Positions 1,159 through 60,284 of a DNA stretch of 64,000 nucleotides are shown here, in pieces. The notes below the pieces were generated by a model. That model saw nothing but the letters and a program-made list of their open reading frames with translations, ran no database searches and had not been told where the DNA came from. The stretch is taken from positions 31,726,008 to 31,790,007 of the forward strand of contig NC_054701.1 of NCBI RefSeq assembly GCF_016097555.1. The letters are read 5' to 3'. Position 1 is the first letter of the stretch. The number at the start of each line of letters is the position of its first letter. Source of the stretch: Gigantopelta aegis. Taxonomy: Eukaryota > Mollusca > Gastropoda > Neomphalida > Peltospiridae. Position numbers and translations under genes: made by a program.

Positions 1159-2090
1159 ACAAACAGATGCTCATATATAACTTCTGATATAGCACCTTTA
1201 AGTGGTTGCAAGATTGTATAAATTTCTACTGTATTTATATTGAATTTATATTCACTAAATATACTGGTCAAAATTAATAATTTATGCTGCAATTCAAAAT
1301 AATCAGTTATCTTGCAGTTTTAACATAAAAGTTTGTTTAAGGGTAAACGAAATTGACACATAGCCATCAAAATGTGTTATAGTCTGTTCCAATAAACATC
1401 ACAAATCTCCTGTTTACTGGTATCTTTATTTTAATTTCAAGAGTAAACACCACCTTGTACATCAATGAGAGCCCAAACAAGTAAATGCTAAATTAGGCGG
1501 AGTATCATTAAATAGGTATTTACAAAATATTTACTTGTTGTTTAATATGAAAGAAATAATTGACGAAAATCATTTTAATTCTATTTCCGACACTACTTTA
1601 GTTCATGTGATCATACAGCTGTATCTATAAAACCATGGTAACATGTACCAATACGAATAGAGATATTGATCCCAGTGATCATCAATCACTCCCCATGTAA
1701 ACACCGAAACCATTCATCAAAATGTGAAATCTGCATTCTGGTTAATATTAAAGTAACTTGTGGAATTATCATCTTGGACAACATCAATAAGAACATACAT
1801 CGTTGTCATACAAATATTTATTTTAATCAGTATTTCTTTTCTATGAAAATCGTTAATTGCAAAAAGATTAAAAGGTCCACAATCATGGCACATTATTAAT
1901 ACACAGTATATATAAAGAAAATACATAAAGATTACATTATTAAACATTAAAAAAACATACCACCCCAATTATTAATAAAGTGACTTTTTGTAAAACGCTC
2001 GGGGGAAAAACACTGATCCAGTCGATTTGACTCGCATCGGACCTGTGACGTAGCATCCGGTGAATTCCACTCATTCATTAGTAAGTTAGC
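1159..2090. other. AT-rich sequence without recognised genes
   Basis: The open frames near 1666-1968 overlap on both strands and resemble no family I know. I treat this stretch as non-coding. Confidence 0.4.
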
Positions 2091-2283
2091 ATGGCGACAG
2101 CATGTAACGATTCTTCGGAAAATGGCTCATTCTTATCGGACGTTAGTTTGGACATTTCTGACTTCTCGCATTTGTCTGTTTATTCTAATGCTACCTCGAT
2201 TGGTGAGGAAGAAGGAGAAAATCCGTAGGGATACTTCCCTATTAGTTTGAACCGGAGTATACCGACGATGATCCGGTGAACCA
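2091..2283 (+). pseudogene. Acidic N-terminal fragment of a repetitive gene (P2X7-tail-like family?)
   Basis: An ATG at 2091 opens a Ser/Asp/Glu-rich 45-residue frame (MATACNDSSENG..., ending EEEGENP). After a stop and a frame change, the text GILPY-stop-FEPEYTDDDPV follows. Acidic N-termini followed by an I-Q-P-Y-x-F-E-P-like motif are typical of repetitive invertebrate genes annotated as similar to the P2X7 intracellular domain. The assignment rests on that motif alone. The fragment is cut by the inverted-repeat element that starts at 2332. Confidence 0.35.
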
Positions 2284-2331
2284 AATGCGGTCAGCTTATA
2301 TGCAGGCCAGAGCCCGAACGTCGCCCGGGGA

Positions 2332-2598
2332 CAAAAACAAAGCCCGAATGTTAATGCAGAGGTGTACATTGTTGGAAAAATATTTTTTTAGAAAATTGCA
2401 TTTTTTATTTTCGGGCTGTACATAACGAAATCCCGAACATCGCCCGAAAACATAACAGGTAATGCGATTTAAAAAATTAAAAAAAAAATTCCATCATTTT
2501 ATTTTTTTAACATGTATAAATGCATCGTGTTGAGGTGTATCTTTGTGCCAAATATGAATAACGTACACCTCAGCATTAACATTCGGGCTTTGTTTTTG
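2332..2598. repeat. Inverted-repeat (foldback/MITE) element, 36-bp arms
   Basis: The left arm 2332-2367 and right arm 2563-2598 are reverse complements with one mismatch by eye (both contain AAAGCCCGAATGTTAATGC). The interior is AT-rich with no coding capacity. It sits between the acidic fragment and the Harbinger pseudogene. Confidence 0.75.
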
Positions 2599-2947
2599 CA
2601 CCGTGGGTGCGCCCCAAGAGCGCACATGGTCACAGCACGGACGCAGCTGTAGTCGGCGGCGCTTGCACGGAGACCTCACAGAGTCCATGGAGATGTCACT
2701 GCGTCTCTACTGCGTTCTTATGGCGCGTCTACAGCGCTTGTACTGCGCTTGCACGCAGTGTTATTGATGCTATTGCGCTCTCAGAGATTACACGGAGCTG
2801 CCACGGCGATCATTGCGCTCCTACGGTGTCCATCAGCGTTTACAGGGCGCTGAAACCACGCTGCCAGTGCGTTGTGAGCAAATCTCACAAAAATGGTATA
2901 AATGCGTCCTAATCATTGTCACCCTCATGTGTTTCCCCGACCTCATC

Positions 2948-3896
2948 ATGGCTGTTGTACGCCAGCAAGCCGGGCTACTCCTTGCCTACATGCACTTCCA
3001 GCAGGTCCAGGATGATGCAAACGTTGTGCACCTCATTCAGGGACGGAGGCGGATGAGGGCCCAAAGGCATAGGAGGGTCTGGGTATGGCAGTGGCTGGAC
3101 GTCGGCAGGAGGTTGCAGTATGGTCACTATCATCAGCTCATGCCTGAGCTGCAGTATGAAGACCCTGCCAGTTACTTCAATTTCCTACGTGTGCCACCCG
3201 ACATGTTCGATGAGCTTCTCGGCAGATTAGGTCCACTAATCACCAAACAAGAAACCCGGTATTGAAAAGCTCTCGAATCAGGTTTGAAGCTGGCCATGAC
3301 ATTGCGTCACCTGACCTCCGGGGACAGGTACGCCAGCATGAAGTTCGACTTTAGAGTACCTCACAATACCATGTCTGTGTGTGTTCGTGAAGTGTGCCAG
3401 GCTTTGATGAGTACAAAGACGAGTGCATCCAGTGTCCTACCACCGTAGCAGAATGGCGTGCAATTTCTGCGGAATTTGGGCGCAGATGGAATGTGCCCCA
3501 TGCATGCACCGAGTTTGATGGGAAACATGTAGCCTGCAGACGTCCTCGGAACACTGGCAGCCTGTACTTCAACTACCAAAGTTGAGAATGCCTTCGGAAT
3601 CCTGGCACAGCGCTGGCAGATCCTCCTCACTACGATGCAACACGACCCTGAGACAATCGCTATCATCGTGGAGGCCTGCGTCATTCTGCACACTCTGATG
3701 CGGATGCAATACCCTGCACTCCAGAATGCTGCCATGGACGCAGAGAATGACAACCACCGAATCATCCCCGGTTCATGGCGGGCTACGGCAAACATGCATG
3801 ATGTGGACAATATGAGGAGTCCCAATCGAGACACCACTGCGATGCATCCGCAAAAATCAGGTACGTTTTGTTTTTTTAGTTCTAAGACTAATTCCT
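2948..3896 (+). pseudogene. PIF/Harbinger transposase, internally deleted
   Basis: A DDE transposase of the PIF/Harbinger superfamily. From ATG 2948 the N-terminal part reads RRVWVWQWLDVGRR, then LRVPPDMFDELLGRLGPLI. A TGA at 3264 replaces a codon, and the same frame goes on with LKLAMTLRHLTSGDRYASM. A frame change near 3393 leads into DEYKDECIQCPTTVAEWRAISAEFG... and FDGKHVACRRPRN, which holds the first catalytic Asp. After YFNYQ at about 3582 the reading jumps to VENAFGILAQRW, which holds the catalytic Glu. The roughly 100 residues that normally carry the second Asp are absent. The element has no working transposase. Terminal inverted repeats were not identified. Confidence 0.8.
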
Positions 3897-3920
3897 GACG
3901 TAACACGTTAAGTATTACGT

Positions 3921-4100
3921 AATAGTAGGATCATTATGCAGACTAACCCAATTTTTTTTCCTAGAAAACGTTTTATGGTGTTTTTTTGGTAATATTGTGT
4001 CCAGAGAACAGCATATCAAAAGTAGGCCAAAATATAAGAACCGCAAAGGGTCTAAATATGACGTCAAACAAAATGGCTGCCATTTGACCAAAAATCCTAA
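3921..4100. repeat. Left inverted arm of the 4-kb candidate element
   Basis: This arm pairs with 7803-7990 with frequent small differences, so it is not recent. It lies immediately right of the Harbinger pseudogene. Confidence 0.6.
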
Positions 4101-4309
4101 TATCTTCACATATCTTTTGAAACAAGCAGTACTAGACCACTTTAAAAGTGAAAATTATTCATAAAGCTTATTACTTTAAAAGTCCTGCAGTTGACAGAAG
4201 TGTCCCTAAGTTATGTCATAACGTCATAACATGACGTGACGTCATCAGCGTTTATCCCTGTTATAATGTTCCGCGATGTCGTTTCACCTGAGAATGGGGT
4301 ATAGAGTCC

Positions 4310-5860
4310 AAGCATTGTGTCAAGTTTGGTCAGATCCTCTTTATATCCCTGACTATTCTTGCAGCAGTTGCTTCTTTGTGCTGTTCGCTAGTTGTATACT
4401 GCATGTCACAAAATTCCTGCATGGCATAGTTGTACGTACATGATACAGGAGAAGACATTGTCCAGATGGTCATTTGGTGTTTTGACATCCCACTACCCCT
4501 TGTTAAACCCCGCTGTATTTTTGAGTGACCTCATAAGAGAGTGTTCAATGACCAAGTCACATCCAAGACCAGCCCAGAATTTGTTGCTTCGCCGGATGAC
4601 ATGGTATTCAAGCATGAATTTCTGAAACACTTCTGGGTTTCCAATCTCCAAAGATGTCATCTTTTGGAGATACAGTTAGGCAGACTTGAGGTAATTTGGG
4701 TGACCCGCGGCGGCAAATATAGGCAAACAATCTGAGACAGCATGGAGGTGCATTTGCCATGATCCCGTACGATCAGCCTCAATAAGTTCCCGCGCAACTC
4801 CCAACATTCGCAGATAGTTCAACCACAGTTTGCTTTTTTTTAGGTTACTACACAAACAAACTTGTACATACAATCACATCCAATCACTTTTTCTCTGCTT
4901 GACAGTATAATTCCTCAAGTTCCTGTATAAGGCTCTCAAATCCTGGTTCACTTTCAGTGATCTTGGATATGATTTGGTTGGTGAGACACTGGTCAACTAG
5001 GAGATGTCCACGAAGCGCACGATACAGCCTTTCCAGTCATCATGTGTACGACTGCATTTTCCCCATAGATTGCCTCCAGTATGTCTTTGAGTCCACTGCA
5101 TTCCATCAATGTCCCAACAGCGCCCAACAGGTTCATTAGTGTATGGAAGCTCCCGAGTAACAAGACAACATCTTTTACTGGGCTATTGTCTTCAACCTCG
5201 TTCACTATTTCAGAAGCTTTCCAAAAGAGAGGCTGGTCGAAAGTGACTACAGGTGAAATGTTGTGCTTGACGCGAGCTTGCATATGAACTCAAGAGTGGA
5301 CAGGATGCACGTACATATCAATCATTGGCAGGAACAGCACAGATGATTGGCCTGGGTGGCCACGCTCACTGGTCAGCGTGTGCATAATCCCTTGCCAATT
5401 TGGGCATTGTACATGAAATCTGAAGGACATTTCCCAAAGCAGATCAATTTTATGGTCATCGTTATTCAGCAATGGTAGCAGTTGGAATTTGATGCTGCAG
5501 CGGATGTGCTTTAAGAAGCAGTATTCTTTGATTGGAATTTTAGTCTCATTCATGACGTTTAGTTCACACAATTTCTGCCTAAGAATTGTGTTGCTGACTT
5601 GACTGCCAGGAGTTGCAGCGGCAATCATTCCCATTCCATAGAATGTACCCTTCCCATCAAGAGTCACAATGTTGTGGTCCACATTATCTGCGGCGAATAA
5701 CAGCATCATGTCGCTTATGACTGTTTGACAACCAAAAATATGTGGAGCAACTGAAGACGCAGCGTTTTCTTCAAATCGCTGTACTTCGGAATATGATGCG
5801 CAATAACCCTGGTCTACTAACCATGACCCTGTCAAATTTCTATAACAAGCGAACAACGCT
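4310..5860 (-). pseudogene. Broken member of a large uncharacterised repetitive gene family
   Basis: Reading leftward, conserved blocks appear in order. They are QGYCASYSEVQRFEENAASS, then VDHNIVTLDGKGTFYGMGMIAA (5690-5630), VTFDQPLFWKA (5250-5215), LGSFHTLMNLLGAVG, GENAVVHMMTGKAV, then ADRTGSWQMHLHAV (4770-4725), FWAGLGCDLVIEHSLMRSLK (about 4590-4535) and YAMQEFCDMQYTTSEQHKEA (about 4420-4360). I recall these blocks from a large family of unnamed proteins repeated in cnidarian, molluscan and fish genomes. I know no established function and do not propose one. The reading frame is interrupted several times, so this copy is dead. Its N-terminal part would lie where the Tc1 element begins at 5865. 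Flanking inverted arms suggest the family may travel as a mobile element. Confidence 0.6.
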
Positions 5861-5864
5861 GTTT

Positions 5865-7355
5865 ACCCATAAATGAATTAAAATCCACTGTCATTGACAC
5901 TGTCGACTAGTTCTAATGGCGAAAACATGCTTACATTTGCACGTAAATTAGGGCGAAAGCGAAAGGTCTGCTAAGTGCCCATAACTTGCTTTTTCACAAA
6001 GCGCTTTATTTGCACGCTTTGCACGTGTATTCCATGTTCCCAATGCTGAATTTCCGTATAATTGGAGCTTGCGTTCGTGTACGGTGCACACTCCAAATTC
6101 GACAGTGATACGACTTCAACTGACTATCGAAGATCGAGGAAGGGCTATTTCTTGGCTTCAGGATGGCAATACACAAAGAAATGTTGCTCTGAGACTTGGT
6201 GTCAGTCAGAGTGTCGTTGGCCGACTGTGGCAACGGTACCAAGCAACGAATTCTGTTCGAAATCGTCCACGTTCGGGAAGACCCCGAAGCACTACAAATA
6301 GAGAGGACCGCTACATCACCAATATGGCTCTACGTCAACGCACAACCACTGCACGCCGATTACGTGACAATCTGCGGACTGCGACTGGAACTCGAGTGTC
6401 TGATCAAACCATACGCAATCGTCTGAGAGCCAATAATCTACGCTGCCGTCGCCAGGCTGTTCGACCACCACTCCTACCACGTCACAGAACGGCCAGATGT
6501 CACTGGTGCACGCTTCATCTGCGGTGGCAACGTGTTCAGTGGGGTCGAGTGATGTTCACTGAGGAGTCCAGGTTTAGTCTCCAGTTCAACGACGGTCGGG
6601 TTCGTGTCTACAGACGTCCTGGGGAGCTCTTCGCTGACGTTAACGTTAGACAACGTCACCGGTTCGGTGGTGGCAGCGTCATGGTGTGGGGCGGCATCTC
6701 TATCCACCACAGGCCCCCCCCCCCCCCCACCCTCTATGTGGTGGATGGCAATCTGAATGGAATCCGCTATCTGAATGAGATTATCCGGCCGTTGGTTCTC
6801 CCAGGCCTTCAGCAGATTGGCGGCGGGGCAGTTCTGCAGGATGACAATGCCAGACCCCACCGCGCCAGGATGGTAACGGACTTTCTCAGACAACAAGGTA
6901 TCGCCAGGATGGATTGGCCAGCATATTCGCCTGACTTGGCCCCAATAGAGTTCGCCCGGGACGAATTAGGCAGGAGAGTTCGGGATAACCATGCCCCTCC
7001 GGCCAACCTTCATGATCTGGGTCAACTTCTTATGGCAGAGTGGCAGGCCATTCCCCAAGAGTTCTTCAGACGTCTGATCAACAGCATGAGGCAACGATGT
7101 GTCGAGTGTATTCGCGCCAGGGGTGGATTCACACACTATTAAACGAATGTTCTAATGTGTAAAATCCATGTTTGACAACCTTCAACTTTGACAGCATGTC
7201 ATGTGACTTTCTTGTATACAGTGACGTTTATTTGTGGGTTTTTGTAAATATGGAACAATAAATTACATTTTTGGTGTAGTTTACATCAACAATCTAATAC
7301 ACTCTGAAACTTATTTGGTTATAAATTTTTGACCCTTAAATTCTTTTGAGTAGTA
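5865..7355 (+). mobile_element. Tc1/mariner element (family 1), 5' end lost
   Basis: Homology to the complete element at 58681-60284 begins abruptly at ACCCATAAATGAATT (5865). The left terminal repeat and about 115 bp of leader are missing. The right terminal repeat TGACCCTTAAATTCTTTTGA ends at 7355 beside TA-rich DNA. The left boundary abuts the broken uncharacterised gene. Confidence 0.9.
6069..7142 (+). CDS. Tc1-type transposase, open but with altered active site
   Basis: A 357-aa open frame of the IS630/Tc1/mariner DDE superfamily, which would cut and paste its own element in the nucleus. N-terminal paired helix-turn-helix segments are followed by the GRPRSTT linker and catalytic blocks. 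The first block reads FTEESRF where its relative at 58894-59955 has FTDESRF, so the first catalytic Asp is Glu. The second block QDDNARPH and third SPDLAPIE are kept with DD34E spacing. A run of 13 C at 6715-6727 adds a proline stretch absent in the other copy. NAWDEL has become FARDEL. The frame is open throughout but probably inactive. It could also start slightly downstream, since the family normally begins near RLQLTIEDRG. Confidence 0.9.
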   Translation: MRSCTVHTPNSTVIRLQLTIEDRGRAISWLQDGNTQRNVALRLGVSQSVVGRLWQRYQATNSVRNRPRSGRPRSTTNREDRYITNMALRQRTTTARRLRDNLRTATGTRVSDQTIRNRLRANNLRCRRQAVRPPLLPRHRTARCHWCTLHLRWQRVQWGRVMFTEESRFSLQFNDGRVRVYRRPGELFADVNVRQRHRFGGGSVMVWGGISIHHRPPPPPTLYVVDGNLNGIRYLNEIIRPLVLPGLQQIGGGAVLQDDNARPHRARMVTDFLRQQGIARMDWPAYSPDLAPIEFARDELGRRVRDNHAPPANLHDLGQLLMAEWQAIPQEFFRRLINSMRQRCVECIRARGGFTHY

Positions 7356-7802
7356 TATATCATATCAAGACATTACCGTTGGATATGTTTTATTTACTGT
7401 GTACTGTCGTCGACCTCAGGTAAAATCTGGAGAAATGTAAATCTGATTGGAATCTTTTGTCTTATTCTGGAGAAGAGATATTTGTAGATGGCAGCACTAC
7501 ACTTATGGACTGCCTCACCTGGGGAAAAGATGCTAATGCACTCACCTGCTTACTGTTTTACTGGCATGACTGGAGTTTCCTACACACAATTTAATAAAAA
7601 ATCTTTAATTTACCACAAAACTCGAAATAATGAAAAGCTCCGTCATGACATCATTGATGACGTCATGACATCACTTGGGTACATTGGGCAATACTATAGA
7701 ATGATGAATTCATTGATATACTGGTTTGAAGAGTTTATTTCCACACATAAATGGGTAAAAACGGCTACATTGATAGGATATTGATAGGATATGAGCAGAT
7801 AT
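7356..7802. other. Interior of the 4-kb unit, no recognised gene
   Basis: The 98-codon frame at 7488-7784 has no motif I recognise. Paired TGACGTCATGACATCA-like stretches near 7645-7675 also occur near 4215-4245 and may be a degenerate extension of the inverted arms. Confidence 0.4.
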
Positions 7803-7990
7803 AAGGCACTGTTTAACAAAGGTGGCCATCTTGTTTTGACCTCAAATTTAGACCCTTTGTGATAGTCCTATTTCGGCCTACTTTCGGTATGTTGTTCTCT
7901 GGACCAAATACTACAGAAAAACACCATAAAACGTTTTCTATGAATTTTTTGGGGGTTTGCCCATTTATTTCATAATTTGACCCTACTATA
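7803..7990. repeat. Right inverted arm of the 4-kb candidate element
   Basis: Reverse complement of this stretch matches 3921-4100 (AAACGTTTTATGGTGTTTTT, GTCCAGAGAACA, GTAGGCC, AAAGGGTCTAAAT). Differences are scattered substitutions and small gaps. Confidence 0.6.
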
Positions 7991-8480
7991 ACCACCAGCT
8001 CGCCAGAGGGCGTATTCACTGGGATGGTACAAAATGGCTGCGCTCATTATATATAATAGCCGTCACATTTAACCGTTTTATTAATTAAATATAAGATTAT
8101 ACTTGTTGATATTAAGCAATAATGTGCATTATATATTGTTGAATATGCATACCAGCCCAAAAGCCTTGCTTAAGCATTCTTTTAATGTGTTTATTGAACA
8201 ACAAGGTATGTTTTTCAATTCCGATTAGAAGGGTAAACCCATTTAGTTTTTAAATCTTAGCGATATTTCTAGTCAGTTGAAAAGTGATTAGCAATTACTG
8301 TTTTGTTTCAAAATTGTGTAGCGATCTCTGAAAATTGTGTAGCAAAAAATGTTCCCTGGTCATTTTTTTTTACCAAGACATCCCCTATAGACTCTACACT
8401 GAATACGTTACTGAAGCTAACTTTTATAATAATTAAAATAATCACACGAATGATTTGATTTAACGAAAGTACTTCAGTTA
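7991..8480. other. AT-rich non-coding DNA
   Basis: No open frame, repeat family or hairpin stands out in this stretch. Confidence 0.4.
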
Positions 8481-8485
8481 CTATC

Positions 8486-8756
8486 ATCAGGTACGGCTGG
8501 AGCAGGGAGGGCCGGGGGGCTCGAGCTCCCCCCCCCCCCTTTCCAATAATTCTGAATCAAAAATATTATTGGTAGTAAATTTTAGGCAGATATGAATTTT
8601 ACTTGTAGAATGCAAGAAATTGCATTTCAGGACATATAGTTTTCAAAACTTTACAGGGGAGCATACTCCCCGAATCCTCTAGAGACCGTTGTTCTTTGCG
8701 CCCGCGATGTCAGGCACCCCCCCCCCCCTCCCCTCCCCCGCGCCGTGCCTGATACT
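8486..8756. repeat. Small inverted-terminal element with C/G runs
   Basis: The left end ATCAGGTACGGC pairs with the right end GCCGTGCCTGAT. The interior carries long G and C homopolymers just inside the ends. This is a non-autonomous element layout. Confidence 0.45.
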
Positions 8757-8769
8757 AGTAGCTTATACT

Positions 8770-8938
8770 CATCAGGTATGGATCCAGGGTTTTTTTTAAT
8801 AAGAGGAAGCCCAAAACCCGTTGTTGTTTTTAAAAATAGAATTTAAAGGTCCTTGAAAGGGGGACGGGATAACGTGTATTCTGTAATGTGTATTCTTTAA
8901 CCAAAAATAGGGGGACCCCCGCCTGGATCCGCGCCTGC
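8770..8938. repeat. Small element with CAGG-GGATCCAGG termini
   Basis: Left CAGGTATGGATCCAGG and right CCTGGATCCGCGCCTG are inverted relatives. It ends 11 bp before the stop codon of the rolling-stone-like gene. A relative occurs at 11984-12232. Confidence 0.5.
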
Positions 8939-8948
8939 TCATACATAT

Positions 8949-22804
<13,856 letters not shown>

Positions 22805-37577: not shown

Positions 37578-37668
37578 GTTTCTTCTTTTTTCCAACTTGA
37601 TGCAGTCTTGGAAATCATAATAAAACTACAGAAAAACTTTAAAACATACTAATAGCTCAGCAATATAT

Positions 37669-39170
37669 ATACTCTTCAAAAAAAGAAACGCAAAAGGGTA
37701 CAAATGGGTTATAACTCCGATTTTATGTTTCCTACCGGTTCATGCTTTGTGAATATAAGGTCATTGCATGTCCCAAACACATTCCCACGGTTACATTCGA
37801 TAAAACGCAGCTACTGTACAATAAAGTTCCAAAATGTGAATATTCGCAAAAACGCAGCCACGTGCAAACCATGTCACCACTGCACGTGCGTTGTCTGCAC
37901 GTGCAACACGAACACCGACAGTATAAAAGTGCAGGGTGTTCGCTTGCCTGGCCTCTGTATCTGGCCGACAGTTGACAATCCAGGACATGCCACGTCTCAG
38001 TGAACCGCAGAGAAACAATGCCATCGGCCGACTAGACGCAGGCGAATCCAGAACGGCCGTTGCCAGGGCATTCCATGTGTCCCCAAGCACCATCTCCAGA
38101 CTGTGGGACCGTTACCAGCAACATGGATCAACACGTGACCTCCCTAGATCCGGTCGACCACGGGTCACTACCCCCCGGGCAGGACCGCTACATCCGGGTA
38201 CGCCACCTTCGGGAACGATTGACTACTGCCACCTCCACAGCCGCAGCAATACCAGGTTTGCGCAGGATATCCGACCAGACCGTACGGAACCGCCAACGTG
38301 AGGTAGGAATTCGTGCCAGACGTCCAGTTCGAGGTGCCATCTTAACACCACAACACCGTCGACTCCGACTGCAGTGGTGCCAGATTCATCGACAATGGCC
38401 TCAACTGCGATGGAGACAGGTGTGGTTCAGTGACGAGTCCCGATTTCTGCTCCGACGTCATGATGGAAGATGTCGCGTGTATAGGCGTCGTGGTGAACGT
38501 TATGCGGCAAACTGCGTGCAGGAAGTGGACAGATTCGGCGGGGGTAGTGTCGTGGTGTGGGCAGCCATCTCACACACTGGCAGAACTGACCTGGTCCACG
38601 TGCAGGGCAACCTGAATGCACAGGGCTACATTGACCAGATCCTCCGGCCACACATCGTTCCAGTTATGGCCAACGCCAACGCAGTGTTCCAACATGACAA
38701 CGCCAGGCCTCACACAGCACGTCTCACAACGGCTTTCCTACAGAATAACAACATTAATGTCCTTCCTTGGCCATCGACATCACCGGATTTGAACCCAATT
38801 GAGAATCTATGGGACGAGTTGGACCGACGCCTCCGACAGCGACAACCACAGCCCCAGACTCTGCCCGAGCTGGCAGCAGCCTTGCAGGCCGAGTGGGCCA
38901 CCATCCCCCGGGACGTCATCCGTACTCTGGTTGCTTCAATGGGCAGGCGGTGCCAGGCAGTTGTCAACACACGCGGAGGCCACACCCGGTATTGACTCCA
39001 GATGACCTTGACCTTGGTGGTGTGTCCTATCACTTACTCACAATGGACTAGAGTGAATTGTGAACAATCCTGCAACATTTGGTAATTATCGGACTCGCCA
39101 TTCAATAATTAAATCAATTCTCCAAATGTTACGACAATGTGGTTTTGCGTTTCTTCTTTTGAAGAGTATA
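37669..39170 (+). mobile_element. Tc1/mariner element family 2, copy A
   Basis: Ends ATACTCTTCAAAAAAAGAAA and TTTCTTCTTTTGAAGAGTAT lie in TA-rich DNA. At 1.5 kb it is nearly identical to copy B at 44033-45534 but in opposite orientation. Confidence 0.95.
37987..38995 (+). pseudogene. Tc1-type transposase copy A, one frameshift
   Basis: It begins [14 protein letters not shown] at 37987 and is collinear with the intact 335-aa protein of copy B. A run of six C at 38170-38175, where copy B has five, shifts the frame after RPRVTTP. The rest is open to GGHTRY-stop at 38995, with [16 protein letters not shown] and SPDLNPIE intact. Only a handful of residues differ from copy B (for example ENLWDEL for EHLWDEL). 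The extra C could also be a homopolymer error, in which case both copies are whole. Confidence 0.9.
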
Positions 39171-39930
39171 TATATACTAGTAGCAAGTATTGAAATCTGA
39201 CATTATTAATTTGTTTTCAGTCTTGTTTATTGCATTCAGGTACAGCACCACATGTAGGCTATCCGTGTATTTATGAACGGAATGTCCACATGTTAATTCA
39301 CATGAATACCTGTCAACTGTGACAATACTGTTCAACAAAAATGTGATCCTTGGTCATGGAACAATACTATTTTATCAGGCTCATAGGAAAGAAATAATTA
39401 TGAGTTTTGTTCTGTCTGAAAGTCTCTCTTTGCTTTTCTCTATCTCTCTCAATTTAATACACACACACACACCACAGAGAGAGAGAGAGAGAGAGAGGAC
39501 TTGCTAGGTTGGGAATTTGTTTCGACGCCCCCACCCCCACCTAAAACCTTGATGATTGGTGAGTGGTGAGTGGACACTATAGCTTGTAAGATAACAAAGT
39601 GAGCTCAGTATACACTTGATTCCATATGAGTAAAGCACGTATCAGTGTCGTTGTAGTTGTGACATGATGTTTAACCTCCACGCAATTAGCGTGTGGACGT
39701 GGTTGGTCTACAGCGTGCTGTGTCAGGTTAGTGTTAGTCGGATGGATATTCATAACCAGTTCTTTTGTTATAATTGAGTTTTCACTCTCACATTCTTCCA
39801 ACGTGTTTTCTTCTTCTTTTCTTTTTTCCCCTTTACAATACACATTATTTTATATTATTCCATCTCTTTATCTCTGTATTGTAATTTAATATTTCACAAT
39901 TTCTTTTTCTTCTCTTTTTAATTCTCTCTC
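39171..39930. other. No recognised gene
   Basis: A small CA/GA patch at 39460-39496 and CT-rich text. I looked here for the signal-peptide exon of the SRCR-EGF-ZP gene and found no convincing one. Confidence 0.4.
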
Positions 39931-43800: not shown

Positions 43801-46800
43801 CGAATTTGATTGGCTCATACGCCTGTTCGTGTCCCGATGCCGAACTCACACTAAGTAGTGATAACTTTACCTGTTATGGTAAATACTTTTGGCGCTACCA
43901 CGTATTATATATGCTTGAAAAAATTACATTACATTACATTACATTACATTACATTACATTACATTACATTACATTACATTACATTACATTACATTACATT
44001 ACATCACATCACATCACATCACATCACAAATATATACTCTTCAAAAGAAGAAACGCAAAACCACATTGTCGTAAGATTTGGAGAATTGATTTAATTATTG
44101 AATGGCGAGTCCGATAATTACCAAATGTTGCAGGATTGTTCACAATTCACTCTAGTCCATTGTGAGTAAGTGATAGGACACACCACCAAGGTCAAGGTCA
44201 TCTGGAGTCAATACCGGGTGTGGCCTCCGCGTGTGTTGACAACTGCCTGGCACCGCCTGCCCATTGAAGCAACCAGAGTACGGATGACGTCCCGGGGGAT
44301 GGTGGCCCACTCGGCCTGCAAGGCTGCTGCCAGCTCGGGCAGGGTCTGGGGCTGTGGTTGTCGCTGTCGGAGGCGTCGGTCCAACTCGTCCCATAGATGC
44401 TCAATTGGGTTCAAATCCGGTGATATCGATGGCCAAGGAAGGACATTAATGTTGTTGTTCTGTAGGAAAGCCGTTGTGAGACGTGCTGTGTGAGGCCTGG
44501 CGTTGTCATGTTGGAACACTGCGTTGGCGTTGGCCATAACTGGAACGATGTGTGGCCGGAGGATCTGGTCAATGTAGCCCTGTGCATTCAGGTTGCCCTG
44601 CACGTGGACCAGGTCAGTTCTGCCAGTGTGTGAGATGGCTGCCCACACCATGACACTACCCCCGCCGAATCTGTCCACTTCCTGCACGCAGTTTGCCGCA
44701 TAACGTTCACCACGACGCCTATACACGCGACATCTTCCATCATGACGTCGGAGCAGAAATCGGGACTCGTCACTGAACCACACCTGTCTCCATCGCAGTT
44801 GAGGCCATTGTCGATGAATCTGGCACCACTGCAGTCGGAGTCGATGGTGTTGTGGTGTTAAGATGACACCTCGAACTGGACGTCTGGCACGAATTCCTAC
44901 CTCACGTAGGCGGTTCCGTACGGTCTGGTCGGATATCCTGCGCAAACCTGGTATTGCTGCGGCTGTGGAGGTGGCAGTAGTCAATCGTTCCCGAAGGTGG
45001 CGTACCCGGATGTAGCGGTCCTGCCCGGGGGTAGTGACCCGTGGTCGACCGGATCTAGGGAGGTCACGTGTTGATCCATGTTGCTGGTAACGGTCCCACA
45101 GTCTGGAGATGGTGCTTGGGGACACATGGAATGCCCTGGCAACGGCCGTTCTGGATTCGCCTGCGTCTAGTCGGCCGATGGCATTGTTTCTCTGCGGTTC
45201 ACTGAGACGTGGCATGTCCTGGATTGTCAACTGTCGGCCAGATACAGAGGCCAGGCAAGCGAACACCCTGCACTTTTATACTGTCGGTGTTCATGTTGCA
45301 CGTGCAGACAACGCACGTGCAGTGGTGACATGGTTTGCACGTGGCTGCGTTTTTGCGAATATTCACATTTTGGAACTTTATTGTACAGTAGCTGCGTTTT
45401 ATCGAATGTAACCGTGGGAATGTGTTTGGGACATGCAATGACCTTATATTCACAAAGCATGAACCGGTAGGAAACATAAAATCGGAGTTATAACCCATTT
45501 GCACCCTTTTGCGTTTCTTTTTTTGAAGAGTATATTACATTACATTTACATTGCATTACATTACGCTATGCAATGCAATATTTGCTTTCTTTTTTACAAT
45601 TACATACGAATTTTAAAGGTCCAAGTGCCATATTTCGCTATTTTCCCATTTATTTGTGATAAATAACAAGAAATTAATCAATACCTCACAATATTTTTAC
45701 ACAATTAACTATAATGTGTTGTCACTGATTCCCTAAGAATTTGTCATCACAGCTTTGTTTTGTTTTGTTTTGATTTTGTTTTTTAGGGTTGAATCAGTGG
45801 TTTTCAGTTTCTGTCTTCTGGGTACTTTGATCTCCAGGATGTTTTTTTTAATTTTTTGATTAACGGCAATGAATTATGGGTTATATCTAATGTGTAACAC
45901 ACGTTCATACAAAATGTCGTCGCTAAGCGTATGTAAGCTGTCTGTAATCCTCTATAACCTAGATTAAATTTTCTTTCTTTTTTTACTTGTAAATAAAATA
46001 ATTGGGTTGTAATGTTTTATTGGCATAAAGATGAAGGTATAATTTTTACATTTAATTTTTTTTAATAAGACTACTTATCGAAGGAAGGAGCCATCATAAT
46101 ATAATTTAAACTTCTAATGTAATTCTGAAATTGTCAATATCATTTTATATATTTTTTGTGTACTTACTCATTCATTATGGCTTTCATGTATTTCATGCCT
46201 ATGTATATAATAATTGGTTTTTACAGCTTTTGTATAGTTATAAATTTTACTCCAATCACGCATTTTATTCAAATTAGCACCTGGTGTAGATGTTCACTGC
46301 GAAAACAACAACATACATGTGGAATTTCACAAGAAGAGCTTCCCTGGGCTTCACGCAACATACATCACACTGAAGGAAGCGCCGTGTATCGCCCGCGACA
46401 ACGGCACACACATCATCGTTGATGTTCCTCTTAAGGGATGTGGAACCGAAGTTCAGGTATGATCTAGTACTATACCAGGGGTTGAAAATTATGTTACCGA
46501 CCATCTGTCTAGCAGGTTATAGCAGTTGTACCTGCACTGCTAAGCTGGAGACATTTCTTTTATAAAAATCCACTGGCCAGTATATATAATAATCTATAGT
46601 AGTGTCACTGTATAAAATAGTAGTTGTCTTCATCTTAATTCAGTCTCATTTCGTTTGTATAAGTTTCAAACATGCTGTCCTAGGCATAAGTTGACTCCCA
46701 ACCCCACGCATTGGCTTATCTGGGATTTTATATTGGGGGCAACAATATTGAGGATGGCATCACACTGTAGGCCTACTATTGCGTGTCGTGTTCTGAGGCA

Positions 46801-50889: not shown

Positions 50890-51678
50890 CCCTGATAAGC
50901 TAAAGACGTAGAAATATTTTTCTCCCATTACCTGTATTCCACTTTAAAAAGCACCCTCATTCAGAGTTAAATGTTATGTAGTACACAAAATAGCAAATAA
51001 ATTAAACAAACATAATCAAAAATATTTATTTACAACCATGTGTGCTTTTTAGTACTTAGTACATGTACAGTGGTATTTTGATATCTCAAGACCTACTGCC
51101 TTTCATATTCCAGTAATTACTGCTGCCAAATAAATATATACATAAATGCAAATAAAAAAACAACTCTTTGGAGCTAATCAAATACACATTGCAATGTATG
51201 ACTAGGACATGTTAATTCCATTTCCTGCTTACAGTAATTAGTATCAATTTCTGCAATTTTCTACTTAGTGAATAAAGTCCAACAATGAATTGATATCCTA
51301 GAAATAAAATATTAAGTTTCCAATTTTAACACACATTCATGAAACTAAATTCAACAAAACATAACCCAAGTTAAGACACAATCCCAATAAATTAGACCTT
51401 TGAAATAATTAAGAACCTTATCACCAACTAACTGAGCTCGTGTACATGTGGGTGTGTTTATGTGCGTATAACGGTACATGTAATCAAACTGATAAAATAT
51501 AATTTCAGTAGCTATTTTGTAGCTCTTAAATTGCTACTGCATTTAAGCAATGTTTTTATTGCAAAACAAAAAATCTAATTATTTCTGTGATTTCCAAAAC
51601 ATTTTCTTTTCTTTTTATGTCAAGTCAAACTCAAATGATTGATGTTAATGCTGGGTGGAATGGGATATAACTTTGGGT
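50890..51678. other. AT-rich region between convergent genes
   Basis: No coding signal. It may include 3' UTR of either convergent gene. Confidence 0.4.
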
Positions 51679-52091
51679 AAAATTACTATTTAACAAACAT
51701 ACCACTGTGTTGTTTCAGTCTGCTGCTTGGTTGAAAGAGAGTGAGGTGCATGTACATGTATAAAATTACTATTTAACAAACATACCACTGTGTTGTTTCA
51801 GTATGCTGCTTGGTTGAAAGAGAGTGAGGTACATGTACATGTATAAAATTACTATTTAACAAACCTACCACTGTTGTTTCAGTCTGCTGCTTGGTTGAAA
51901 GAGAGTGCGGTACATGTACATGTATAAAATTACTATTTAACAAACATACCACTGTGTTGTTTCAGTCTGCTGCTTGGTTGAAAGAGAGTGCGGTACATGT
52001 ACATGTATAAAATTACTATTTAACAAACATACCACTGTGTTGTTTCAGTATGCTGCTTGGTTGAAAGAGAGTGCGGTACATGTACATGTAT
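51679..52091. repeat. 83-bp minisatellite, five units
   Basis: Units start AAAATTACTATTTAACAAAC at 51679, 51762, 51845, 51926 and 52009. They contain CTGCTTGGTTGAAAGAGAGT and end GTACATGTAT. They differ by a few point changes and one 2-bp deletion. Confidence 0.95.
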
Positions 52092-52094
52092 AAA

Positions 52095-52372
52095 ATTAAA
52101 GTTTGTTTTGTTTAACAACATCACTAGAGCACATTGATTTAGTAATCATTCACTATTTGTTTCATTTACCATAGTTTGACACCCAACAGCCGATGTATTT
52201 GTTCATGCTGGGGTGTCGTTAAACATTCATTCATATATTCATTCACTATTGGATGTCAAACATTTGGTAATTTTGAGTCTTAGAAAACCTGCTAGATTTT
52301 CCCATTAGTAGCAAGGGATTTTTTATATGCACCATCCCCCAGACAGGATAGCACATACCACAGCCTTTTAGA
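52095..52372 (-). repeat. SINE with a second SINE tail nested in it
   Basis: The reversed tail AAGTTTGTTTTGTTTAACAA is interrupted at about 52160-52240 by a plus-oriented piece ending GGGGTGTCGTTAAACATTCATTC. The original element then resumes at CACTATTGGATGTCAAACAT. Confidence 0.75.
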
Positions 52373-58650: not shown

Positions 58651-58680
58651 CTGAAATAGAAAATGAATGACATATATATA

Positions 58681-60284
58681 TACTACTCAAAAGAATTTAA
58701 GGGTCAAAAATTTATAACCAAATAAGTTTCAGAGTGTATTAGATTGATGATGTAAACTACACCAACAATTTTATTTATTGTTCCATATTTACAAAAAAAC
58801 ACAAATAAACGTCACTGTATACAAGAAAGTCACATGACATGCTGTCAAAGTTGAAGATTGTCAAACATGGATTTTACACATTAGAACATTCGTTTAATAG
58901 TGTGTGAAACCACCCCTGGCGCGAATACACTCGACACATCGTTGCCTCATGCTGTTGATCAGACGTCTGAAGAACTCTTGGGGAATGGCCAGCCACTCTG
59001 CCATAAGAAGTTGACCCAGATCATGAAGGTTGGCCGGAGGGGCATGGTTATCCCGAACTCTCCTGCCTAATTCGTCCCAGGCGTTCTCTATTGGGGCCAA
59101 GTCAGGCGAATATGCTGGCCAATCCATCCTGGCGATACCTTGTTGTCTGAGAAAGTCCGTTACCACCCTGGCACGGTGGGATCTGGCATTGTCATCCTGC
59201 AGAACTGCCCCGCCGCCAATCTGCTGAAGGCCTGGGAGAACCAACGGCCGGATAATCTCATTCAGATAGCGGATTCCATTCAGATTGCCATCCACCACAT
59301 AGAGGGGGGTCCTGTGGTGGATAGAGATGCCACCCCACACCATGACGCTGCCACCACCGAACCGGTGACGTTGTCTAACGTTAACGTCAGCGAAGCGCTC
59401 CCCAGGACGTCTGTAGACACGAACTTGACTGTCGTTGAACTGGAGACTAAACCTGGACTCATCAGTGAACATCACTCGACCCCACTGAACACGTTGCCAC
59501 CGCAGATGAAGAGTGCACCAGTGACGTCTGGCCGTTCTGTGACGTGGTAGGAGTGGTGGTCGAACAGCCTGGCGACGGCAGCATAGATTATTGGCTCTCA
59601 GACGATTGCGTATGGTTTGATCAGACACTCGAGTTCCAGTCGCAGTCTGCAGATTGTCACGTAATCGGCGTGCAGTGGTTGTGCGTTGACATAGAGCCAT
59701 ATTGGTGATGTAGCGGTCCTCTCTATTTGTAGTGCTTCGGGGTCTTCCCGAACGTGGACGATTTCGAACAGAATTTGTTGCTTGGTACCGTCGCCACAGT
59801 CGGCCAACGATACTCTGACTGACACCAAGTCTCAGAGCAACATTTCTTTGCATATTGACATCCTGAAGCCAAGCAATAGCCCTTCCTCGATCTTCTATAG
59901 TCAGTTGAAGTCGTACCATTGTCGAATTTGGAGTGTGCACCGTACACGAACGCAAGCTCCAATTATACGGAAATTCAGCATTGGGAACATGGAATACACG
60001 TGCAAAGCGTGCAAATGAAGCGCTTTGTGAAAAAGCAAGTTATGGGCACTTAGCACACCTTTCGCTTTCGCCTAATTTACGTGCAAATGTAAGCATGTTT
60101 TCGCCATTAGAACTAGTCAACAGTGTCAATGACAGTGGAATTTAATTCATTTATGGGTTGCTTAGACCCACTTTCGTCAAAATGGAACAATACCATGCGT
60201 GACGTTATGGTCTAGCTAATATAATTGACATTCAGAAAATAATGTCGAAAATATCGTCTGACCCTTAAATTCTTTTGAGTAGTA
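58681..60284 (-). mobile_element. Tc1/mariner element family 1, complete copy
   Basis: Inverted ends TACTACTCAAAAGAATTTAA and ...TTCTTTTGAGTAGTA bound 1.6 kb in a (TA)n context, the classic TA target. It is inserted in the intron just upstream of a DNAJB9-like exon, in the same orientation as that gene. Confidence 0.95.
58894..59955 (-). CDS. Intact Tc1-type transposase, 353 aa
   Basis: A DDE transposase of the same family as 6069-7142. The ATG at 59955 gives 353 aa. An ATG at 59919 (MVRLQLTIEDRG) gives 341 aa and is an equally good start by family comparison. Two helix-turn-helix segments lie before about residue 130. Catalytic residues are D165 (FTDESRF), D255 (QDDNARSH) and E290 (SPDLAPIENAWDEL), with 34 residues between the last two. 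It lacks the proline expansion of the 6069 copy. No stop or frame change is seen, so the copy appears functional. Confidence 0.95.
   Translation of the reverse strand: MRSCTVHTPNSTMVRLQLTIEDRGRAIAWLQDVNMQRNVALRLGVSQSIVGRLWRRYQATNSVRNRPRSGRPRSTTNREDRYITNMALCQRTTTARRLRDNLQTATGTRVSDQTIRNRLRANNLCCRRQAVRPPLLPRHRTARRHWCTLHLRWQRVQWGRVMFTDESRFSLQFNDSQVRVYRRPGERFADVNVRQRHRFGGGSVMVWGGISIHHRTPLYVVDGNLNGIRYLNEIIRPLVLPGLQQIGGGAVLQDDNARSHRARVVTDFLRQQGIARMDWPAYSPDLAPIENAWDELGRRVRDNHAPPANLHDLGQLLMAEWLAIPQEFFRRLINSMRQRCVECIRARGGFTHY

Follow-up and report, generated by a model that had tools for sequence, protein, structure and literature searches.

An inactive DNA transposon copy with a broken transposase-like gene in the gastropod Gigantopelta aegis, most likely of the AcademX lineage

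Results

The window analyzed here is a stretch of 64,000 nucleotides from the gastropod Gigantopelta aegis (RefSeq assembly GCF_016097555.1, contig NC_054701.1, positions 31,726,008 to 31,790,007). It holds a broken gene on the minus strand, running from 5862 down to approximately 4339, that is framed by long inverted repeats. We conclude, with a probability of roughly 86%, that the gene and its repeats make up a cut-and-paste DNA transposon, now inactive, that belongs to the Academ superfamily and most likely to its AcademX lineage. Searching the window against itself recovered imperfect inverted arms (3958 to 4114 against 7944 to 7788) with 79.9% identity over 159 columns (E < 1e-29 in each self-search), and aligning the ends across copies set the true ends of the element at 3923 and 7988. 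The terminal inverted repeat on the 3' side of the gene (3923 to 4114, plus strand) begins with TAGTAGGATC, and the repeat on its 5' side (7788 to 7988) begins with TAGTAGGGTC on the minus strand. Comparison of the flanks revealed an identical TAA target site duplication directly outside the two repeats (3920 to 3922 and 7989 to 7991). The window holds one copy of this transposon, with genuine transposon ends at both arms. An earlier note on this DNA, made from the letters alone, had described a broken minus-strand gene with recognizable protein blocks between two stretches that match each other in inverted orientation. We found the blocks on that strand and the match between the stretches, whose limits we refined as above. 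Its suggestion that the arms are true termini also held, since arms and gene recur together throughout the genome with a 3-bp target duplication.

Stops and frame changes break what survives of the gene into several pieces. Based on tblastn matches and reading frames, these pieces retain approximately residues 413 to 960, gaps included, of a 1,469-residue relative (P0002), and they are spread over several frames. Six fellow members of its group (L009 to L013 and L015) match P0002 only from residue 251 to 415 onward. The 4,066 bp between the ends include a separate Tc1-like element nested at 5865 to 7365 (plus strand), so that the element proper accounts for approximately 2.6 kb. In the self-search, the nested element was 96.3% identical to positions 58672 to 60158 of the window. 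It carries a Tc3-type helix-turn-helix and a DDE_3 domain (Pfam HTH_Tnp_Tc3_2, E = 3.9e-14; DDE_3, E = 1.5e-6) and is foreign to the Academ-type element around it. Its right end has a terminal repeat in common with the other copy, and approximately 136 bp are missing at its left end. Because only the middle of the gene is left, with frame breaks and with the Tc1-like element inside the transposon, the window copy is inactive. It has lost the N- and C-terminal parts of the gene, accumulated frame breaks, and received the Tc1-like insertion.

We searched the source assembly (1.149 Gb, 5,216 contigs) with a 190-residue piece of the gene product (5293 to 5862) and with one arm (3921 to 4114). The protein piece gave at least 151 matches in the genome, with 150 of 300 candidates scored, and the arm gave 61 candidates, of which 40 were scored. 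Twenty gene loci were then taken as 10-kb stretches for comparison of arms and ends. Both arms surrounded the gene in 15 of the 20 loci, and a single arm was present in two (L014 and L017); the arm search placed the second arm of L014 just past the end of its stretch. Window-type arms were not found at E < 1e-4 in the other three loci (L026, L027, and L028), but these bear inverted ends of their own that differ in sequence from the window arms.

From the side of the arms, a pairing script joined 28 of the 40 scored arms into 14 inverted pairs, which span 2,016 to 7,190 bp and are spread over ten different contigs. Tested with a subset of the 151 protein matches (18 chosen near arms, plus one other), 12 of the 14 pairs enclosed a match to the 190-residue query. 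The remaining two (L046 and L047) contained other parts of the same gene, and all 14 pairs enclose the gene or its remnants. The script left 12 scored arms unpaired. Three of these have a partner in the examined loci (C9:22785688 in L014, C3:92759078 in L013, and C3:47126645 in L019), one (C12:51378111) adjoins gene remnants, two (C2:40267899 and C6:31303424) have a gene match nearby, and five others had none within the subset of protein matches given to the script. The twelfth, at C13:37330639 (L036), adjoins gene remnants; its 3' end lies 2.7 kb from that of L010 (C13:37333385), and the outer flank is common to both, as expected if the stretch was duplicated locally or in the assembly. Given the pairs found by the script and the partners in the examined loci, the scored arms occur mostly as inverted pairs around this gene.

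Exact 3-bp target duplications were present in 17 of 20 two-ended copies: 15 of 16 in the main set, one of three among L026 to L028 (L027), and L046 (one of one). L047, which has lost one outer end, was left out of this count. In a control, flanks mispaired between loci gave a 3-bp match in 7 of 240 cases. The duplicated triplets vary by locus (GCC, TCA, TTC, CGA, and others), and an exact duplication of 4 to 10 bp was found in none of 16 copies. The check proposed in the earlier note thus came out in favor of a mobile element, with arms recurring across the genome as inverted pairs that flank the gene (here 2.0 to 7.2 kb apart) with a constant target duplication outside them. We also looked for outcomes that would speak against it, namely, gene copies without arms and arms without the queried part of the gene. 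The three loci without window-type arms are copies of the former kind in sequence only, having inverted ends nonetheless, and the two pairs without the queried part of the gene hold other parts of it.

The ends themselves fall into several sequence variants. In the window's group, aligned ends begin with TAGTAGGGTC or TAGTAGGATC. Ends begin with TAGTAGGGTC in L016 to L019, L022, and L024 and with TAGTCCAGTC in L020, L021, L023, and L025. The end is TAGTCTAAGC in L027, TAGTCAATAT in L028, and AAGTCTAAGC in L026, the last with a first base unlike that of L027. Terminal repeats of 16 copies align at 75 to 86% over 93 to 210 columns. Among nine long copies, eight measure 5,070 to 5,511 bp and the ninth 6,468 bp. 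Identity between L021 and L025 is 99.7% over 5.1 kb, which suggests that the wider family moved recently; L026 and L027 are 99.1% identical over 6.0 kb.

More distant loci (L029 to L032, taken as 6.5-kb stretches) encode proteins that are approximately 28 to 48% identical, in pieces, to P0001 to P0003. No inverted pair was found around the gene in these stretches, in part owing to where the stretches end: L030 and L031 break off inside the gene or at a contig end, and L032 starts close to the gene. L029 has a possible end motif and nothing more. For L031 (contig C2984), the genome search gave a 3,237-residue frame with one TGA inside the match; on translation, the matched frame had two stops, so that this length does not describe a clean frame.

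Stop-to-stop open frames comprise 1,489 residues in L021, 1,469 in L022, and 1,482 in L026, and full-length relatives in the same genome encode one protein of approximately 1,450 to 1,490 residues. We examined conservation in a 12-row alignment, using P0002 for numbering. Among its rows are the window copy, two near-duplicate pairs (L026/L027 and L029/L030), incomplete sequences, and broken ones in which stops are written as X. Conserved Cys and His residues occur in the N-terminal region. Counting rows with a letter at the position, the core contains D451 in 10 of 10, D606 in 8 of 9, E853 in 7 of 7, and H637 in 9 of 9. Farther along, a nuclease-like region has seven conserved acids, each in six of six rows: D1083 (DGGSLLHR), D1122 (VFDGY), D1193 and D1195 (GDAD), D1217 and D1219 (GEDTDLL), and D1275 (GCDTTS). 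The C-terminal tail has nine cysteines, each likewise in six of six. The motif order of the seven acids is that of Rad2/XPG nucleases. We compared the nuclease-like block with XPG/EXO1/FEN1-like exons from the same genome, which were found with the XPG_I model and individually labeled by our own reading. The hhalign probability was 42.5, compared with at most 3.2 in 100 column shuffles, and the score was 23.5, compared with at most 15.8.

Pfam scans of the three full frames gave no match to a helicase, to DDE_Tnp_4, or to another transposase model. The Pfam family DUF6589 matched the joined window pieces weakly and collinearly (E = 0.0012, 18.1 bits) and P0003 at E = 0.0052 (16 bits). Neither score reaches the curated cut-off (27 bits), and the family was not among the Pfam matches of P0001 or P0002. 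A literature search returned no paper naming DUF6589 and nothing relevant for PF20231. Scanning viral_contigs with the window protein gave no match, and scanning it with alignment A2 gave 23 pattern matches with no relative among them; the single match in PHROGs had an E value of 0.21.

Other mobile DNA lies in the same window. Harbinger-like transposase gene fragments are found beside the element at 2768 to 3898 (plus strand), where 3533 to 3895 matches Plant_tran (E = 1.5e-5) and DDE_Tnp_4 (E = 2.7e-5). A further Tc1-like relic occupies 9623 to 10705 (minus strand), of which 9845 to 10705 matches DDE_3 (E = 5.7e-6) and helix-turn-helix models. The stretches 37667 to 39173 and 44030 to 45535 are inverted copies with 99.2% identity over 1,507 bp and are in part approximately 71% like 9756 to 10198; because of this identity and resemblance, they are probably young Tc1-like elements. 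Judged from self-matches, tandem arrays are present at 17771 to 18095 (period of approximately 108 bp) and 51678 to 52098 (approximately 83 bp). A hydrophobic 171-residue frame at 8949 to 9464 (minus strand) resembles, as we take it, part of a rolling-stone-type membrane protein.

Discussion

The ends, the target duplication, the joint recurrence of arms and gene, and the conserved residues are direct observations, and from them we infer enzymatic roles and folds for the protein as well as the Academ name. Its Cys/His-rich, probably zinc-binding parts would help to bind the ends of the element. A DDD/E-type core, with D451, D606, and E853 of P0002 as the best candidates, would cut at TAGT...ACTA and join the element to its target with a 3-bp stagger, which would give rise to the 3-bp duplication. 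The Rad2/XPG-like nuclease region near the C terminus may trim or resolve a DNA intermediate. On this interpretation, a large set of proteins that is unnamed in the searched domain libraries gains an identity, and such genes here would be transposon genes rather than host genes.

Several observations weigh against this account. E420, D454, D461, and D849 are conserved as well as the proposed triad, and the position of D606 is occupied by Y in L028; with other acids equally conserved, D451, D606, and E853 are put forward only as candidates. An exact 3-bp duplication is absent from 3 of the 20 copies (L009, TTA/CTA; L028, GAC/CAC; L026, CAG/AAT). With the whole proteins or just the nuclease-like region as queries, Pfam, NCBIfam, and PDB named neither a transposase nor a nuclease, and the genome scan with XPG_I included none of these elements. 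The predicted fold of one window piece was unusable (mean predicted local distance difference test score, 34.8). Finally, the placement in the AcademX lineage of the Academ superfamily, which makes an already-named type most likely, was made by description and not against Academ reference sequences.

The same anatomy could instead mark a superfamily without a name, near Academ but distinct from it. In its favor, the protein goes unnamed in the searched libraries and solved structures, and Academ itself was compared by description. However, the duplication length, the element length, and the nuclease-like region all agree with Academ and AcademX as portrayed in the available portions of PMC10045372 and PMC10294476, and we regard a separate superfamily as unlikely. 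Equally doubtful is a version in which these elements form a superfamily of their own beside Academ, with DUF6589 as a distant branch of the transposase core and with that DDD/E-like core joined in one large protein to a Rad2/XPG-like nuclease and a tail of nine cysteines.

It is very improbable that the gene is cargo and that its arms were moved by another transposase. We infer the enzymatic role of the protein, which leaves some room for this idea, but the gene or its remnants fill all 14 arm pairs, and the distant L027 and L028, whose proteins share 49 to 37% identity with that of the window, have ends of this kind as well, starting with TAGT but different in sequence. Neither is there another transposase in the three full frames according to Pfam. 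We also rejected Tc1/mariner as the owner of the arms, because the duplications are varied 3-bp sequences and not TA and because the Tc1-like frame belongs to the nested element. The chance that a host gene simply came to lie within a fortuitous or local inverted duplication, with no mobile element, is close to nil: although local duplication occurs among the copies (L036 and L010, with the same outer flank), the 14 inverted pairs lie dispersed on ten contigs with 3-bp duplications that differ between places.

Comparison with known transposons

An AcademX element remains the preferred interpretation when other known systems are considered. Harbinger and Zator resemble it in having duplications of approximately 3 bp. 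Harbinger prefers a TWA target, and we rejected it on account of duplications beyond TWA and the lack of a DDE_Tnp_4 match in the three full frames. DUF6589 resembles the protein through a weak collinear match and differs in falling under its cut-off and in missing P0001 and P0002. The nuclease of AcademX is of the XPG type. For Zator, whose duplications are given as approximately 3 bp in the accessible part of PMC10045372, the difference is that no Pfam transposase model matches the three full frames. KolobokP, which the accessible part of PMC9587614 presents as a mollusc-rich group of DNA transposons with a DDD/E transposase and a second nuclease, would resemble it in that pairing. We rejected it because its long terminal direct repeats are approximately 450 or 660 bp in that text, compared with 37 nucleotides for the longest direct-repeat family in window positions 2000 to 10000.

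Within Academ, the same part of PMC10045372 reports target duplications of 3 or 4 bp for AcademX and of 9 or 10 bp for AcademH and ties this difference to the nuclease and the helicase that they encode. AcademH belongs to the same superfamily by name, but we rejected it since the duplications here are 3 bp and the Pfam scan lists no helicase in the three full frames. AcademX is matched by the exact 3-bp duplication (17 of 20 copies), by inverted ends around one large gene (15 of 20 loci; 14 pairs in the genome), and by the absence of a helicase from Pfam scans; the nuclease-like region added to the one large protein would be a further point in common. The long copies (5,070 to 5,511 bp in eight of nine) are near the mean of 5,565 bp for 100 curated bivalve Academ consensus elements in the portion of PMC10294476 available to us. 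Among the features compared, by description and not by reference Academ sequences, there was no difference from AcademX. Together, the 3-bp duplication, a length near 5.1 to 5.5 kb, and the putative added nuclease argue for this described lineage. The earlier note was right in proposing a DNA transposon with the gene as part of it; its label of a candidate undescribed transposon is not supported, as the anatomy fits Academ and AcademX by description. In the same portion of PMC10294476, a mollusc survey that included five gastropods recovered Academ almost exclusively from bivalves; if the Academ name is true, the many copies in G. aegis would extend the superfamily to a gastropod.

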